Position numbers and translations under genes: made by a program. From the NCBI GenBank assembly GCA_945833925.1, contig CAMAFX010000017.1, positions 1-38,228 on the forward strand: DNA of 38,228 nt, written 5' to 3'. The number at the start of each line of letters is the position of its first letter. Position 1 is the first letter of the stretch. Below the pieces are notes generated by a model. The model did not search any database. It saw nothing but the letters and a program-made list of their open reading frames with translations, and was not told the DNA's origin. The DNA is from an uncultured Prevotellaceae bacterium (GTDB taxonomy: Bacteria; Bacteroidota; Bacteroidia; Bacteroidales; Bacteroidaceae). Shown here piece by piece: positions 17,976 through 24,879 of this stretch.

Positions 17976-19058
17976 TCAACTTAGAAGGTCAATGAGACGC
18001 ATAACAATAAGAACAACAATTCCAACGACAGAAATAGTAGAGATACCTATCAGTATTCTTAGTGTCCACTTCATACCTAGGCTACGCATCTCTTCTGGAG
18101 TATACTCTGGTTCTTCTGCCTTTGCATTTGGATCAACCTCCAACTTGGTTTGGTTAATGTAGTCAATTGCAGTTACCAAGTTTGCATCATTCTCATTAAT
18201 GAGAGTTGTAAACTTGGCAAACTTAACCAAATCAGCCGTTTGAAACAACTTGCGAAGTTCATCAAGAGCCTCCTCGTTATTCTCAGCAGTCAGTCTCTCG
18301 ATAATTTCGCCAGATGTCATGTCCATAGCACGGAATCCGTAACGATCCTGGATGTATGTTCTAAGAGTATCTGTCAACTGAGTATAGTATTCCTTACTAT
18401 CATCGGACGCCCAGGTCTTTTCCTCCTTTATACGCTCTATCTCACTCATAGCCACCTGATGGGGAGGCAACTTGACTTTATGACGAATAATACGAATGAT
18501 TGGATTGCCTTGTTTGAGCCAAACAAGCATAGCGAAAGTGATAATCAGCAGAACTATAATAAGAAGAGAACCATATACAATACTCTTCCAGTCATCCCAC
18601 GAGAATGGGGCGTCCTCTATTCCCTTTGTACCAAAATATTCTTCAAGATGTATTGTGTCTACAGGAACCGTATAAACCTGTAGAGCCAACGACTTGGATT
18701 TATAATGCGTTGTATCAACAATAACTTCCAGAGGTGGCAGATAATACAATGCAGAATCAAACGAGGTTATTATATAACGTTGGGTCAACAGCATCCGCTT
18801 GTTATCGTTAAGCATCTGCGTGTCGGGGTCGTACACTTTTACGACCTCCACTCCGGGCACCAACTGAGAACGCTCGCTCAATGCTGGCAAGACAGGATGT
18901 TGATTGCTGTTGCATGTCACGTCCAATGTTAGTCCGGTTTGCTGTCCAATAAACATTTGGAGCGAATCAATCCTTATATCAACCGTCACCTGTGCCACAG
19001 CCGAAGCAGGCAACAGAGCAAACAACAATATATAAATGAATCTATTATAAAATTTCAT
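17976..19058 (-). CDS. Bat-operon membrane protein (BatD/DUF4381-like)
   Basis: The 360-residue protein has a signal peptide (LLFALLPASAVAQ) and a periplasmic beta domain of about 135 residues. A transmembrane helix spans 160-180, followed by a cytoplasmic helical domain (EYYTQLTDTLRTYIQDRYGF, AMDMTSGEII). A final helix lies at about 335-357. The order (beta domain, helix, helical domain with YGFRAMDMTSGEI) recalls the shorter BatD-like or DUF4381 proteins found between the DUF58 gene and batA. It lies 53 bases after the DUF58 gene. Its role is inferred only from position. Confidence 0.75.
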   Translation of the reverse strand: MKFYNRFIYILLFALLPASAVAQVTVDIRIDSLQMFIGQQTGLTLDVTCNSNQHPVLPALSERSQLVPGVEVVKVYDPDTQMLNDNKRMLLTQRYIITSFDSALYYLPPLEVIVDTTHYKSKSLALQVYTVPVDTIHLEEYFGTKGIEDAPFSWDDWKSIVYGSLLIIVLLIITFAMLVWLKQGNPIIRIIRHKVKLPPHQVAMSEIERIKEEKTWASDDSKEYYTQLTDTLRTYIQDRYGFRAMDMTSGEIIERLTAENNEEALDELRKLFQTADLVKFAKFTTLINENDANLVTAIDYINQTKLEVDPNAKAEEPEYTPEEMRSLGMKWTLRILIGISTISVVGIVVLIVMRLIDLLS

Positions 19059-19111
19059 TCACCTAACAAATTATTCTTATTTGTGCATCTTAGAATCAAG
19101 AGAGTAAGGAT

Positions 19112-19981
19112 TCAGCCTCGCTGAGCAAACAAACTACGTAAGGCAACAACATAGTCCTGGTCCGTACGAACACTGACAGAGTCAACATTGCTTCGGGTCA
19201 GAGTGTCACGCAACGTATTCTGACGTTCACGCCACCATGCGGCCTGAGCATTGCGAACTTCGCGACTACTTGTATCTAAATACCTTTCAAAACCGCTTTC
19301 AGCATCACGAACCTTTATCAGACCGACATTAGGGAGTTCCTCTATTCTACGGTCATAAACCTGTATTGCTACAACATCGTGTTTTCTGTTTGCCACGGTC
19401 AATGGAGTGCGGAAGTCCTTGCTACACATGAAATCGCTCAACACGAAAGCGGTACATCGACGCTTTATAACCTGGGAGAGGTATTCTACTGCGTATCCGA
19501 TATCTGTCTTCTGACTTTCTGGTTTGAAATCAAGAAGTTCACGGATGATAAACAATATATGTTTTCGTCCCTTCTTGGGTGGTATGAACTTCTCAATCTT
19601 GTCACTGAAGAAGATGACTCCAATCTTATCGTTGTTCTGAATGGCGCTGAATGCCAATGTAGCGGCAATCTCGGTCACCATATCACGTTTCATTTGAACA
19701 GACGTTCCAAAATTCAAACTTCCACTTACGTCAACAAGAAGCATTACTGTCAGTTCTCGCTCTTCTTCAAAAACCTTGATGTATGGCTTGTTGAAACGAG
19801 CCGTCACGTTCCACTCTATATCACGTATGTCGTCGCCGTACTGATACTCGCGCACTTCACTAAAAGCCATTCCACGTCCTTTGAATGCGGAATGATACTC
19901 TCCGGCAAAGATGTTATTTGACAGTCCTCGAGTTTTAATCTCTATCTGTCTTACGCGTTTTAATATATCAGAAGTTTCCAC
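19112..19981 (-). CDS. DUF58-domain protein of the Bat operon
   Basis: The 289-residue protein has no signal peptide. It carries the DUF58 signature FKGRGMAFSEVREYQYGD followed by DIRDIEWNVTARFNKPYIK, then a VWA-like domain with LLVDVSGSL (a DxSxS MIDAS-like motif). DUF58 proteins are almost always paired with MoxR AAA ATPases and VWA proteins, as here. They are thought to act in a chaperone-like metal or complex assembly system at the membrane. It starts 96 bases after moxR. Function beyond the association is unproven. Confidence 0.92.
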   Translation of the reverse strand: METSDILKRVRQIEIKTRGLSNNIFAGEYHSAFKGRGMAFSEVREYQYGDDIRDIEWNVTARFNKPYIKVFEEERELTVMLLVDVSGSLNFGTSVQMKRDMVTEIAATLAFSAIQNNDKIGVIFFSDKIEKFIPPKKGRKHILFIIRELLDFKPESQKTDIGYAVEYLSQVIKRRCTAFVLSDFMCSKDFRTPLTVANRKHDVVAIQVYDRRIEELPNVGLIKVRDAESGFERYLDTSSREVRNAQAAWWRERQNTLRDTLTRSNVDSVSVRTDQDYVVALRSLFAQRG

Positions 19982-20077
19982 TATTAGTAATTACAATTAT
20001 AAAAAACTCTGCAAATTATATAATTTCGCAAGTTAGTATATTAATGGATGGTATATCAACACCTATCAAGATACATA

Positions 20078-21076
20078 TTAGGGCACCTCAACCTTGTTGA
20101 TAATCTGACTGATAATATCCTCGGAAGTAACATTGTTTGCTTCCGCTTCATAACTAAGACCAATACGATGACGCATTACATCGTATGCTACGGCACGAAT
20201 ATCCTCTGGAATGACATAGCCACGACGCTTGATAAATGCATATGCACGAGCAGCGAGAGCCAAGTTGATACTTGCACGTGGAGAGCAACCGAACTCAATG
20301 TAGTTCTTTATTTCCTTCAAGCCATACTTCTCGGGATAACGAGTTGAAAATACAATGTCTACAATGTACTGCTCAATCTTCTCATCAAGATATACCTGCT
20401 TAACAACCTCACGAGCTTCAACAATATCCTTTGTTGAAAGAATTGGACGAACCTCCTTCTTAATATCGCCATTGATATTACAGCGGATAATACGCTTCTC
20501 ATCCTCCAACTTAGGATAATCGATAACAACCTTGAGCATAAAACGGTCAACCTGGGCTTCTGGCAATGGATATGTACCCTCCTGCTCGACGGGATTCTGG
20601 GTTGCAAGTACAAGGAAAGGATTAGAAAGTTGATAAGTACTCTTACCGATTGTCACCTGACGCTCCTGCATGGCTTCGAGAAGTGCACTTTGCACTTTGG
20701 CTGGTGCACGGTTAATTTCATCCGCCAATACAAAGTTTGCAAAGACCGGTCCTTGTTCAACAATGAACTTCTCGTCCTTCTGGCTGTAAATCATTGTACC
20801 AATGACATCGGCAGGAAGCAAATCTGGAGTAAACTGTATTCTACTAAACTGTGCATCAACTAACTGGCTCAATGTTTTGATTGCAAGAGTCTTGGCAAGT
20901 CCAGGAACACCCTCCAACAACACATGACCATCACTTAGCAAACCAATGATTAATGATTCCACCAAATGCTTCTGACCAACGATGACCTGATTCATTCCTG
21001 TTACCAAGTTAGTAACAAACGCACTTTGTCTTTCTATTCGCTCATTCAATTCACGAATATCAATAGATTCTGCCAT
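20078..21076 (-). CDS. MoxR-family AAA+ ATPase
   Basis: The 332-residue protein is a cytoplasmic AAA+ ATPase. Walker A is GVPGLAKT at residues 56-63, with the Ala-for-Gly form usual in MoxR. Walker B is VLADEINRAPAKVQSALLEA, sensor 1 is LATQNP, followed by EQEGTYPLPEAQVDRFML, and the C-terminal lid has GCSPRASINLALAARAYAF. MoxR proteins work as chaperones for VWA-domain partners. It is the first gene of the Bat operon and has a consensus promoter about 93 bases upstream. Confidence 0.95.
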   Translation of the reverse strand: MAESIDIRELNERIERQSAFVTNLVTGMNQVIVGQKHLVESLIIGLLSDGHVLLEGVPGLAKTLAIKTLSQLVDAQFSRIQFTPDLLPADVIGTMIYSQKDEKFIVEQGPVFANFVLADEINRAPAKVQSALLEAMQERQVTIGKSTYQLSNPFLVLATQNPVEQEGTYPLPEAQVDRFMLKVVIDYPKLEDEKRIIRCNINGDIKKEVRPILSTKDIVEAREVVKQVYLDEKIEQYIVDIVFSTRYPEKYGLKEIKNYIEFGCSPRASINLALAARAYAFIKRRGYVIPEDIRAVAYDVMRHRIGLSYEAEANNVTSEDIISQIINKVEVP

Positions 21077-21374: not shown

Positions 21375-23132
21375 CTACTTTTTCTCTAATTCGGGCATCT
21401 TCAGTACTTGACCGACCTCAATATGATCGGGATTAGTTATATTATTTAATTTCATAATATACTCGGTATACTCCATACTGCCAAATTCCTTTCTTGCTAT
21501 CGAGAACAAGCCTTCACCAGACTCAACGACATGTGTTCCTCGCACACCAACAATCTGATACTTCGCCCCCCTTACTTGAGGAAATTTCGTGGTATTGTCT
21601 GAGGAAACACTATCGGACGAAGGAGTATTTACAGACTCGCTCTTACCTGTCGTTTGCCTTGTGGCCGGAGTTGAGACCTGCGTAGTTTTCTGCGACGCAC
21701 TTTTCGTTGTCATTTGCGAAGTGCCTGGCTTTGTATTTTGCACAGAAACATTCCTGTTCTGTTCTTTTATCTTAGACTGACCTGCAGATACCGTACGCAA
21801 AGCATTATTCTGTTGAATCTTTGATGTTTCAACTTTTTCCTTTGAAGGCACACCACCTGCTGTTTCATCCTCACCAATCTTGTTTTGTGATGGTTCTAAC
21901 GGACTATTGTTCTGTACACTGTCCTTTACCGATGAGGCAGGAGAAGCGGTCTCTGACTGTGCAGACACTTTAACGCCAGAAGTAGTTCCAACAGAAGTTT
22001 CCTTTTCAGAAACATCTTCGCTGTCATTTTTCATTGCGGCTGCATACTCACATGATGAGCACAACCAATGATGAGAACCTGCGTAATAACTCAATCCCGC
22101 AACGAAAAGCAAGAATATAGCACCTGCCATCTTTTTTAACAGATGAAACGTGTCGCTTGACGTGGCGTTTGCCTGCTTGCTGTCAACAGGCAACGATACT
22201 TCGCTTTTAGTCTCTTCAGCGGTATCAGTGGTGTCAGTGGTATCTGAATTGTCTGTATTTACATTTTGGTTGGAAAGGTGAAGTCGCTGCTGCTGGGTGT
22301 CAGTGGTATCTGAATTGTCTGTATGTACTTTGGAATCACCCTCTATGGCATTCTCTACATCAACAGAGTTCTCATTCTCAATATCATTGTCAGTATGAGC
22401 AGAATCAACTGTTACATCTGATTCTTCAGTAACAGCATCCTGTGGCATTGCATCTTCATCTGATGTGCCAGAAGCAGCAACTTCAGACTCATCATCTGAC
22501 GCTCCCTCAACAGTAGGAACATCTTCTGTGACAACTGTATCCACGCCATCTTCTACAACGACAGGATTTGTGTCATCTTCAGTAACAGTAGGATTCACGT
22601 CATCATCAGCAACGACAGGCTGTTTATCTTCTTCCACAATCTCAGAAGAGCCTATATCAACAGAACGTCTGTCAGAATCACCTTCCTCTTTACTTTCTAT
22701 AGAAGGAACGTCTGCCACATTTTCTAAAATCTCGTCTTCAACGCCGTCACTTGTGTCATCATCTGTGTTGTCAGTGGTGTCAATATACTCCATCGCACTT
22801 AAATCGACCCCGTCATTCAGTATAATTGTTTCAAATTCAGCAAAAGGACGATTTACGTAATCACGAATAGTAGAGTCTGGAGTATAGGTCACCTTACTGT
22901 GCCCCTCAATATGAATTCGTTCACCTGTATTCACGTTGACACTATCTCGTCCGCTAACCTCCACAATCTTGAAAGTACCAAGTCCTTTTACCTTAACAAT
23001 TCTGTCTTGTTGCAGAAACTGCTCTATAGTCTGAAAGAACTCACGAACAAAGGAATCACTATCCTTTTTTGATAGTCCACTGCGTGCAGAAACACCATTG
23101 GAAAGATCTTGAAAAAGTATTTTTTCGTCCAT
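21375..23132 (-). CDS. Membrane protein with HU-type DNA-binding domain and LysM domain
   Basis: The 585-residue protein has an HU/IHF-like domain at residues 1-95, with the signature KGLGTFKIVEVSGRDSVNVN and TYTPDSTIRDYVN. A very acidic Asp/Glu/Ser/Thr linker covers about 105-310. KKM then precedes one transmembrane helix (about 335-352, AGAIFLLFVAGLSYYAG). A Ser/Thr/Lys/Gln-rich segment follows, and a LysM domain at about 533-581 (THVVESGEGLFSIARKEFG, IEVGQVLKMP). There is no N-terminal signal, and positive charges before the helix predict HU inside and LysM in the periplasm. It follows a stand-alone HU gene by 5 bases. A link between DNA and peptidoglycan is an inference. Confidence 0.88.
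   Translation of the reverse strand: MDEKILFQDLSNGVSARSGLSKKDSDSFVREFFQTIEQFLQQDRIVKVKGLGTFKIVEVSGRDSVNVNTGERIHIEGHSKVTYTPDSTIRDYVNRPFAEFETIILNDGVDLSAMEYIDTTDNTDDDTSDGVEDEILENVADVPSIESKEEGDSDRRSVDIGSSEIVEEDKQPVVADDDVNPTVTEDDTNPVVVEDGVDTVVTEDVPTVEGASDDESEVAASGTSDEDAMPQDAVTEESDVTVDSAHTDNDIENENSVDVENAIEGDSKVHTDNSDTTDTQQQRLHLSNQNVNTDNSDTTDTTDTAEETKSEVSLPVDSKQANATSSDTFHLLKKMAGAIFLLFVAGLSYYAGSHHWLCSSCEYAAAMKNDSEDVSEKETSVGTTSGVKVSAQSETASPASSVKDSVQNNSPLEPSQNKIGEDETAGGVPSKEKVETSKIQQNNALRTVSAGQSKIKEQNRNVSVQNTKPGTSQMTTKSASQKTTQVSTPATRQTTGKSESVNTPSSDSVSSDNTTKFPQVRGAKYQIVGVRGTHVVESGEGLFSIARKEFGSMEYTEYIMKLNNITNPDHIEVGQVLKMPELEKK
22230..22324. repeat. 29-bp direct repeat within the HU-LysM linker
   Basis: The sequence GGTGTCAGTGGTATCTGAAT and the next nine bases occur at 22230-22258 and again, identical, at 22296-22324. 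The copies are 66 bases (22 codons) apart, in frame, and encode TDNSDTTDT segments of the acidic linker. This suggests recent expansion by slippage or recombination. Confidence 0.85.
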
Positions 23133-23137
23133 AGCGC

Positions 23138-23410
23138 TTATTTCAACTTATCTTTAATGGTGCTACTTGGTTTAAACTTAATCTCCATTTTCGGCGGTAT
23201 AAGCATTCTCTGTCGCGTTGAAGGATTGACAACGACGTGCTCCAGTTTCTTCTTGACCTCAAATGTTCCAAACCCCTGCAAACTAATTTGGTTGTCTTCA
23301 CCCAATTGATGAGACATTTCTGTGACAACAGCAGTTATGAGTGTGGTAGCCTCTTTTGTGCTATAACCAGTACGACGAGAGAGTTCTGCTATAAATTCCT
23401 TGTTGTTCAT
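23138..23410 (-). CDS. HU-family DNA-binding protein
   Basis: The 90-residue protein is a standard HU/IHF subunit. It has MNNKEFIAELSRRTGYSTKE, the SLQGFGTFEVKKK turn, the beta-arm region with NPSTRQRMLIPPKM and the C-terminal FKPSSTIKDKL. It bends and compacts DNA as a dimer. It starts 32 bases after the rimO stop and ends 5 bases before the HU-LysM start, so all three are probably cotranscribed. The tight pairing makes heterodimers between this protein and the membrane HU domain conceivable. Confidence 0.95.
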   Translation of the reverse strand: MNNKEFIAELSRRTGYSTKEATTLITAVVTEMSHQLGEDNQISLQGFGTFEVKKKLEHVVVNPSTRQRMLIPPKMEIKFKPSSTIKDKLK

Positions 23411-23442: not shown

Positions 23443-24744
23443 TTACTTTACTACAGTTCCATAGAGGTCAAAATCATCCGCACTGTCTATCTTAACATTA
23501 TAAAACTGACCAATCTCCAAGTCCGGAGAAACAGTACTTATCAAAACCTCGGGATCAACCTCTGGCGAATCAAATTCTGTGCGTCCAATATAATACTCTC
23601 CCTCTACCCTGTCGATTATGACTTTCATAACAAGCCCAATCTTCTTCTCCTGAATATCACTTGAGATTCGTTGCTGTATACGCATGAGTTTGCTTAAGCG
23701 AGCATCTTTGATTTCGGCAGGAACATCATCGTCATAATGTTCTGCAGCATACGTACCGTCTTCTTCGCTATACGCAAAAGCACCCATACGTTCAAACTTT
23801 GCCCACTTCACGAAGTCAACGAGTTCGTCAAACTCCTCATCTGTCTCGCCAGGGAAGCCTACCATCAATGTAGTACGAATTTCAATGCCAGGAACCTCCT
23901 TGCGAATCGTCTTTATCAGATTGCGTGTTTCCTGCGCTGTAATATTACGACGCATTCTACTTAGAACGCCATCAGATATATGTTGTAAGGCAATATCCAG
24001 ATAACGACACACATTGCTGTGCTTACGCATAACATGCAAGAGGTCCATTGGGAAGTCTGTTGGATACGCATAATGCAAACGAATCCATTCTACGCCAGGG
24101 ATTGAAGCAATTCTATCTATCAATTCCGCAATTGCTCTGCGATGATAGATGTCAAGTCCGTAATATGTAAGTTCCTGGGCTATCACCTGGAACTCCTTGA
24201 CACCACGAGACACCAATCTGCGCACCTCATCCTCAATATCCTCTATCTCACGACTTTTATGCTTTCCTGTGATAATTGGTATAGCACAATAAGCACATCC
24301 TCTGTTACAGCCATCAGATATCTTCAAATATGCATAATGCTGTGGAGTTGTGAGGTATCTTTCGTTATGTATCTCATTATTATAGGTATGTCCTAACTCA
24401 GTCAGGAGTTCAGTCCAATCAAATTTGCCATAGAAATGGTCTACCTCGGGAATTTCCGAAATCAAATCTCCAAGATAGCGCTCTGATAGGCAGCCCATGA
24501 CATATAACTTCTCAAGTTTCCCTTGAGTCTTTCGCTGCCCCATCTCAAGAATCATGTTGATGCTTTCTTCCTTTGCATCGCCAATAAAACCGCATGTATT
24601 CACAACGCAGATCTCTCCCTTTGGATTGTCGATGTCATGCGTGACATTATATCCCAAGGCAGCCAGTTGCGTTATGAGGCGTTCCGAATCTACCAGATTC
24701 TTGGAACATCCCAACGTTATTATATCGACTGTTTTCTTTTTCAT
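23443..24744 (-). CDS. rimO: Ribosomal protein S12 methylthiotransferase RimO
   Basis: This radical SAM enzyme adds a methylthio group to an aspartate of ribosomal protein S12. From the ATG at 24744 it has 433 residues. A longer in-frame start at 24783 adds 13 residues, but MKKKTVDIITLGCSKN is the usual family start. The N-terminal domain has GCSKN, VNTCGF and MGCLSERY (second Fe-S cluster cysteines). The radical SAM motif CNRGCAYC follows, and the C-terminal TRAM domain ends with DSADDFDLYGTVVK. It lies 135 bases after ftsY; I see no strong promoter in that gap. Confidence 0.95.
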   Translation of the reverse strand: MKKKTVDIITLGCSKNLVDSERLITQLAALGYNVTHDIDNPKGEICVVNTCGFIGDAKEESINMILEMGQRKTQGKLEKLYVMGCLSERYLGDLISEIPEVDHFYGKFDWTELLTELGHTYNNEIHNERYLTTPQHYAYLKISDGCNRGCAYCAIPIITGKHKSREIEDIEDEVRRLVSRGVKEFQVIAQELTYYGLDIYHRRAIAELIDRIASIPGVEWIRLHYAYPTDFPMDLLHVMRKHSNVCRYLDIALQHISDGVLSRMRRNITAQETRNLIKTIRKEVPGIEIRTTLMVGFPGETDEEFDELVDFVKWAKFERMGAFAYSEEDGTYAAEHYDDDVPAEIKDARLSKLMRIQQRISSDIQEKKIGLVMKVIIDRVEGEYYIGRTEFDSPEVDPEVLISTVSPDLEIGQFYNVKIDSADDFDLYGTVVK

Positions 24745-24879
24745 GCTTATCGCAAATACTTCTTTCAATGTAATACCTTTCACCCATCAATGAAGAAAGT
24801 TACATCACAATCATGCTAAAGTAAATTTATCTTGTCTGAATTGAAAGACACAACCTTTTACGACACAATTGTAAAAAAA

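Follow-up and report, generated by a model that had tools for sequence, protein, structure and literature searches.

A predicted membrane-spanning HU protein with a LysM domain and a paired HU gene: a possible nucleoid-to-wall tether in Bacteroidales and Balneolaceae

Could a chromosome be attached directly to the cell wall? Most accounts of how the chromosome is attached to the envelope invoke indirect links, such as transertion and Noc. The ParA–HubP system likewise appears, in excerpts from two reports (PMC12918733, PMC8789113), as an indirect chromosome–envelope link. The question is raised here by a gene at 21375..23132 (minus strand, as are all window features given below) of a 38,228 nucleotide (nt) stretch from an uncultured Prevotellaceae bacterium (GenBank assembly GCA_945833925.1, contig CAMAFX010000017.1), the whole of which was analysed and is called the window. 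A list of open reading frames (ORFs), Pfam and AlphaFold2 define its product as a protein of 585 amino acids (aa), here called the tether, with an HU domain, a transmembrane (TM) helix and a LysM domain; such a subunit, with HU on one side of a membrane and a domain of wall-binding type on the far side, would join chromosome and wall physically and directly. We suggest, at a probability of roughly 0.5, that the tether is the subunit that anchors a dedicated HU heterodimer to the wall, that the soluble subunit is the product of the HU gene 5 bases upstream, and that together they would keep DNA at the inner membrane (IM) while LysM would hold peptidoglycan. The idea of a tether came from an earlier reading of the letters alone (the sequence-only reading) and is plausible; the protein itself is real, conserved and under-described, and no HU–membrane–LysM protein was found in the open-licence literature among the titles and abstract starts listed.

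By profile, AlphaFold2 fold and match to the Protein Data Bank (PDB), the tether is a member of the HU/IHF fold family. Its HU domain (residues 1–95, 22848..23132) is delimited by PF00216 (Bac_DNA_binding, residues 9–94; 62.8 bits vs a Pfam cut-off of 22.4), by the tether alignment, by a predicted HU fold over residues 1–98 and by a fold match to HU structures; the domain has a net charge of 0, and the tether alignment places a conserved segment, NRPFAEFETIILNDGVD (residues 94–110, 22803..22853), at its end. Across 47 rows of that alignment F33, V46, K47, G52, F54, K55, R62, G70, R72, I75, P85, N94, P96, F97 and F100 are invariant. The LysM domain with its flanking strands (residues 521–584, 21381..21572) is recognized by PF01476 (residues 534–580; 28.7 bits vs a cut-off of 20.9), by PDB 4uz2, the nearest LysM in sequence (50 bits), and by a predicted fold at residues 525–584, which superposes on the LysM of the Kbp-based sensor 7vcm with a root-mean-square deviation of 1.0 over 53 residues and also matches baseplates of contractile injection systems, besides wall enzymes. 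Since potassium-binding Kbp, such baseplates and wall enzymes have this fold in common, its ligand is uncertain; peptidoglycan binding by the tether LysM domain is likely. Between the two domains lie an acidic linker (residues 96–325, 22158..22847), predicted from composition and AlphaFold2 to be disordered and cytoplasmic, a single membrane helix (residues 328–353, 22074..22151), predicted from hydrophobicity and AlphaFold2, and a Ser/Thr-rich segment (residues 356–520, 21573..22067), predicted by the same means as the linker to be disordered and periplasmic. In the AlphaFold2 model the predicted local distance difference test score is mostly 87–95 in ten-residue blocks of the cores, 76–80 at the HU ends and 76 at the helix end, and is below 50 for 331 of the 585 residues, mainly in both linkers. 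The HU/IHF-type domain at residues 1–95, the single helix with positive charges on its N-terminal side and the C-terminal LysM domain named by the sequence-only reading are all borne out, whereas its 200-residue, very acidic linker is indeed acidic (69 D+E vs 8 K+R, net −61) but 230 residues long. Within this linker a short duplication, TDNSDTTDT, begins at residues 270 and 292 (22221–22325).

Is this architecture more than an accident of one contig? In the window's own family, as defined by GTDB, the tether is common: at a limit of E 1e-20 the window protein finds matches in 103 of 151 genomes, and at 1e-3 in 143 of 151, the latter including weak HU or LysM matches. Across the order, an alignment of relatives has matches at E 1e-20 or better in 44 of 295 genomes, from 15 families, and in a sample of the phylum (395 genomes) the matches outside the order at E 1e-12 or better all fall in one family of another class. 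We identify that family as Balneolaceae, as L062, one of its proteins, has the same sequence as a protein of Fodinibius halophilus, and most of the named matches around it are from Fodinibius or Balneolaceae. These genome counts reflect mostly the HU end; architecture was checked in the fetched loci, which are best matches and not a random sample, many of them from shared genera. ORFs were extracted from 131 loci, of which 124 had an HU match and 114, the window included, had a complete ORF with HU, a hydrophobic segment and LysM (91 from Bacteroidales, 23 from Balneolaceae). The ten left out are a duplicate of the window (L002), five cut by contig ends (L033, L039, L040, L051, L054), a 263-aa frame that ends within the helix region and lacks LysM (L049), a short frame of 147 aa (L125) and two with LysM-like ends visible by eye and below the profile threshold (L078, L081). 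The search for the same architecture across Bacteroidales proposed with the sequence-only reading is thereby answered, with Balneolaceae in addition; the 114 complete ORFs are all distinct and have the same domain order, and we rejected a chance or chimeric ORF on this ground. Tethers have a median length of 425 aa, a cytoplasmic linker of 31–500 aa (median 139; net charge negative in 113 of 114) and a helix-to-LysM segment of 21–167 aa. Median identity to the window in 51 relatives (L003–L060) is 53% for HU, 54% for the partner HU described below, 37% for LysM and 26–28% for the linkers and helix.

Which way round would the protein lie? The twelve most hydrophobic 19-residue stretches of the tether all start at residues 326–339, so no N-terminal signal peptide is visible, and K333–K334 precede the helix core. 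In 80 of the 114 tethers the juxtamembrane charge on the HU side exceeds that on the LysM side, in 17 it falls below it and in 17 the two are equal (three, L023, L056 and L129, have more than one hydrophobic stretch). The topology with HU inside and LysM outside, which the sequence-only reading had drawn together with the lack of a signal peptide, is accordingly what the charges and hydrophobicity predict. The reverse, with HU outside on extracellular DNA and LysM inside, could draw on the description of HU proteins outside cells in an excerpt from one paper (PMC9445418); it runs against the charge bias and the missing signal peptide, and would leave LysM facing no wall to bind, and we regard it as extremely improbable.

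The argument for a heterodimer rests on a second gene. The partner HU (90 aa, arm VVVNPSTRQRMLIPPK; 23138..23410) was identified from the ORF list, Pfam and a partner profile; its stop codon (TAA) extends to 23138 and the tether start codon (ATG) opens at 23132, leaving the 5 bases that the sequence-only reading had counted. Using a profile built from partner HUs, we found such a gene directly upstream on the same strand in 112 of the 114 tethers, at spacings from a 37-base overlap to a 65-base gap. Overlaps occur in 68, by 4 or 8 bases in 47 of these; ORF starts were set mechanically, and some overlaps (e.g. that of 37 bases) may be start-codon artefacts. L112 and L115, which belong to different families, are the remaining two: here an in-frame fusion joins partner and tether, and both fusions follow FtsY- and RimO-like genes, as the window pair does. 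In the protein collection, the L112 type is represented by cluster P0242, with 103 sequences. Since the partner HU is directly in front or fused in all 114, the two HU halves are likely to pair. A model of a fused pair superposes on single-chain IHF, a predicted joint two-HU dimer fold. The chain folded there, P0244 (465 aa, with both arms), was used for folding only and set aside as evidence of a third natural fusion: it is a single sequence on a 2,514-base contig, and an unfused tether 97% identical to it (P0268) has 1,043 members, so a frameshift error is possible.

In a tree of 66 HU domains, drawn from 32 of the 114 pairs and from two further HU genes that the window's genome encodes, and based on few alignment columns, the 32 tether HUs lie on one side of a branch and the 32 partner HUs likewise on one side of another (support 98/94). 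Both groups span Bacteroidales and Balneolaceae, so the pair is likely old and inherited together, and the two other HU genes fall outside both. The tether might still work alone, as a homodimer binding DNA and wall, with an ordinary free HU co-transcribed upstream by chance: HU homodimers are common, and some Prevotella tethers carry tandem tether-type HU domains in a single chain (P0063 and L054:4992–5783, the latter preceded by a separate partner HU gene). Invariable pairing, the two fusions, the separation of partners from the genome's other HU genes and the shared arm decay described next make this distinctly unlikely; the pairing, the fusions, the arm decay and the predicted dimer fold favour the mixed dimers with the neighbouring HU suggested by the sequence-only reading, a remark that is the best part of its interpretation.

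What would each subunit contribute? The proline at the tip of HU/IHF arms is the residue that intercalates in DNA. A gapless alignment to solved HU and IHF chains puts Val67 of the tether at that position (arm tip RDSVNVNTGER, residues 62–72, 22917..22949); the partner HU has the proline. Among tethers the tip residue is proline in 23 of 23 from Balneolaceae, and in the 91 from Bacteroidales is Val in 70, Ile in 10, Pro in 2 and Glu in 1, the arm being lost in 8 (L112 and L115 are counted here, as the P of L112 belongs to the fused partner and the T of L115 to a shortened arm). With five further loci counted, in whose tethers a hydrophobic segment and a LysM-like end are likewise present, the tether arm is lost or degenerate in 13 cases. 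Their partners lack the tip proline in 6, the basic residue after the P-P motif in 8 and one or the other in 9, compared with none of the partners of the 106 armed tethers (those of L016 and L123 read by eye). Loci L112–L131 had been included because their HU match looked split or weak and L159–L163 because of a poor tether match, a selection on the tether and not on the partner; the 13 cases come from four lineages (f76, f125, f70 and f1/g13), so Fisher values overstate their independence. Joint loss of DNA-side features in both proteins is expected if both serve one binding site, and it suggests that DNA bending is not the sole purpose for which the unit is kept. In eight of the loci (L113, L114, L116, L117, L122, L126, L159 and L160) the beta-arm is deleted or a stub, and core, helix and LysM remain. 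In a fourth HU gene of the window's genome (L158:26–307, contig C51) the arm tip is unusual: ARNISKNTTLIVPAH has Ile at the HU proline position.

In the heterodimer that we propose, the partner would supply the main DNA-gripping, proline-tipped arm and, in Bacteroidales, most of the positive charge (median net charge +5 in 89 non-Balneolaceae pairs, −3 in the 23 from Balneolaceae), and the tether, with a median HU-domain charge of 0, would supply half of the HU body plus the anchor. The HU pair would then hold chromosomal DNA at the IM, and LysM would hold peptidoglycan on its outer side; the acidic linker would span the distance to the membrane and, as we suggest, may keep the chain from sticking to DNA. 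Long disordered linkers would also suit cleavage, as in a membrane-held regulator that responds to a wall state sensed by LysM, either by proteolytic release of its HU part or by an effect of that part on local transcription. We think this quite improbable, given that the linker ranges from 31 to 500 residues and that HU is a weakly specific DNA binder.

How far is such a device new? Proteins of the HubP/FimV type (Vibrio, Shewanella, Pseudomonas) resemble the tether in having a periplasmic LysM, one membrane helix and a long, acidic, variable cytoplasmic region (predicted in the tether), but have the opposite domain order, with a signal peptide and N-terminal LysM, and a C-terminal TPR (FimV) domain in place of HU, DNA being held only through ParA1. 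In excerpts from two reports (PMC12918733, PMC8789113), the LysM of P. putida FimV binds peptidoglycan and is needed for its placement, and HubP of V. cholerae places the chromosome 1 origin through ParA1. Membership of the tether in this group was rejected, as neither Pfam nor NCBIfam gave a FimV/TPR match up to E 1. A second precedent, the HU-CCDC81-SPOR proteins of Bacteroidota (PF18174/PF18175 plus PF05036), likewise combines HU-type domains at the N-terminus with a hydrophobic segment and a wall-type domain at the C-terminus, but has divergent HU domains and SPOR in place of LysM; the tether was not assigned to it either (PF18175 12.9 bits vs a cut-off of 35; no PF18174 or PF05036 up to E 1). 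A role of these proteins in chromosome partition was reportedly predicted by Burroughs et al. in 2017, a study that may also describe the HU–membrane–LysM arrangement. PF18175 matches 96 of 99 genomes of the order at E 1e-3, the weaker matches including ordinary HU genes, and 82 of 99 above the cut-off. The window's own genome encodes one (L156:1783–3057, contig C43), whose HU-CCDC81_bac_1 and bac_2 domains are accompanied by a hydrophobic stretch around residue 220 and by SPOR at the C-terminus, so the same cell has two different HU proteins with wall-type domains. Directly after it (L156:3105–3641) lies a gene whose small product, read by eye, starts with a zinc-ribbon-like CxxC and holds an FHA-like stretch. 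Like IHF and HU heterodimers, the proposed tether pair would have two different HU-fold subunits; unlike them, its tether subunit adds a linker, membrane helix and LysM and has an arm lacking the tip proline. Database names on relatives, such as HU family DNA-binding protein or LysM domain-containing protein (e.g. P0122 of Fodinibius halophilus), state neither function nor pairing. The architecture given by the sequence-only reading is supported; the general tether idea is less new than first stated, HubP/FimV being a known LysM–membrane–acidic tether and HU-CCDC81-SPOR sharing its logic.

Several observations weigh against a DNA-holding heterodimer: Val or Ile replaces the tip proline in 80 of the 91 Bacteroidales tethers, the HU domain of the window tether is charge-neutral, tether arms are deleted or degenerate in at least the four lineages named above, the partner has zero or negative net charge in 28 of 112, and P. 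putida FimV is reported, in the excerpts, without a role in chromosome segregation, so the shared design alone is no proof of a chromosome role. CCDC81-type HU domains have been proposed as protein-binding dimerisation modules. The tether HU may similarly no longer bind DNA, the pair being an envelope scaffold, and apart from FimV the points just listed, with DNA-side residues lost from partners and helix and LysM retained where arms have decayed, are what this alternative would lead one to expect. We consider it doubtful, yet to be taken seriously. The arm is strongly conserved in most relatives (R62, G70 and R72 are among the invariant residues), the tip proline persists in every Balneolaceae tether, and the partner tip proline and basic residue are kept in 106 of 106 armed cases. 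Arm-deleted Escherichia coli HU, moreover, binds DNA at reduced affinity, according to an excerpt (PMC8854993, citing Thakur 2021), so arm loss need not end DNA binding.

A broader form of the proposed heterodimer, which we hold more tentatively and would put a little short of even, is that Bacteroidales and Balneolaceae have a direct chromosome-to-wall bracket, formed by an ancient dedicated HU pair with an envelope-built subunit and distinct from HU-CCDC81-SPOR; of the two brackets, the LysM one would serve along the wall and the SPOR one at the septum. The two-gene unit should be easily deleted, and if the pair works as proposed, nucleoid-to-wall attachment could be tested by one deletion and two domain removals, with the natural arm-less lineages as ready comparisons.

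Finally, the wider neighbourhood is less fixed than the gene pair. Translation and synteny place a gene that we take to be RimO-like upstream of the pair (23443..24783) and one that we take to be a MoxR-like ATPase downstream (20078..21076). Of the 112 tethers preceded by 900 nt or more of sequence, at least 63 have RimO just upstream, overlapping genes not being counted, and none of 23 Balneolaceae loci has it there; MoxR lies within 1500 nt downstream in at least 61 of 114 tether loci, many of which end sooner. In the window the tether is followed on the same strand by a series (17976–21076) of genes that are presumably MoxR-, DUF58- and BatA-like.
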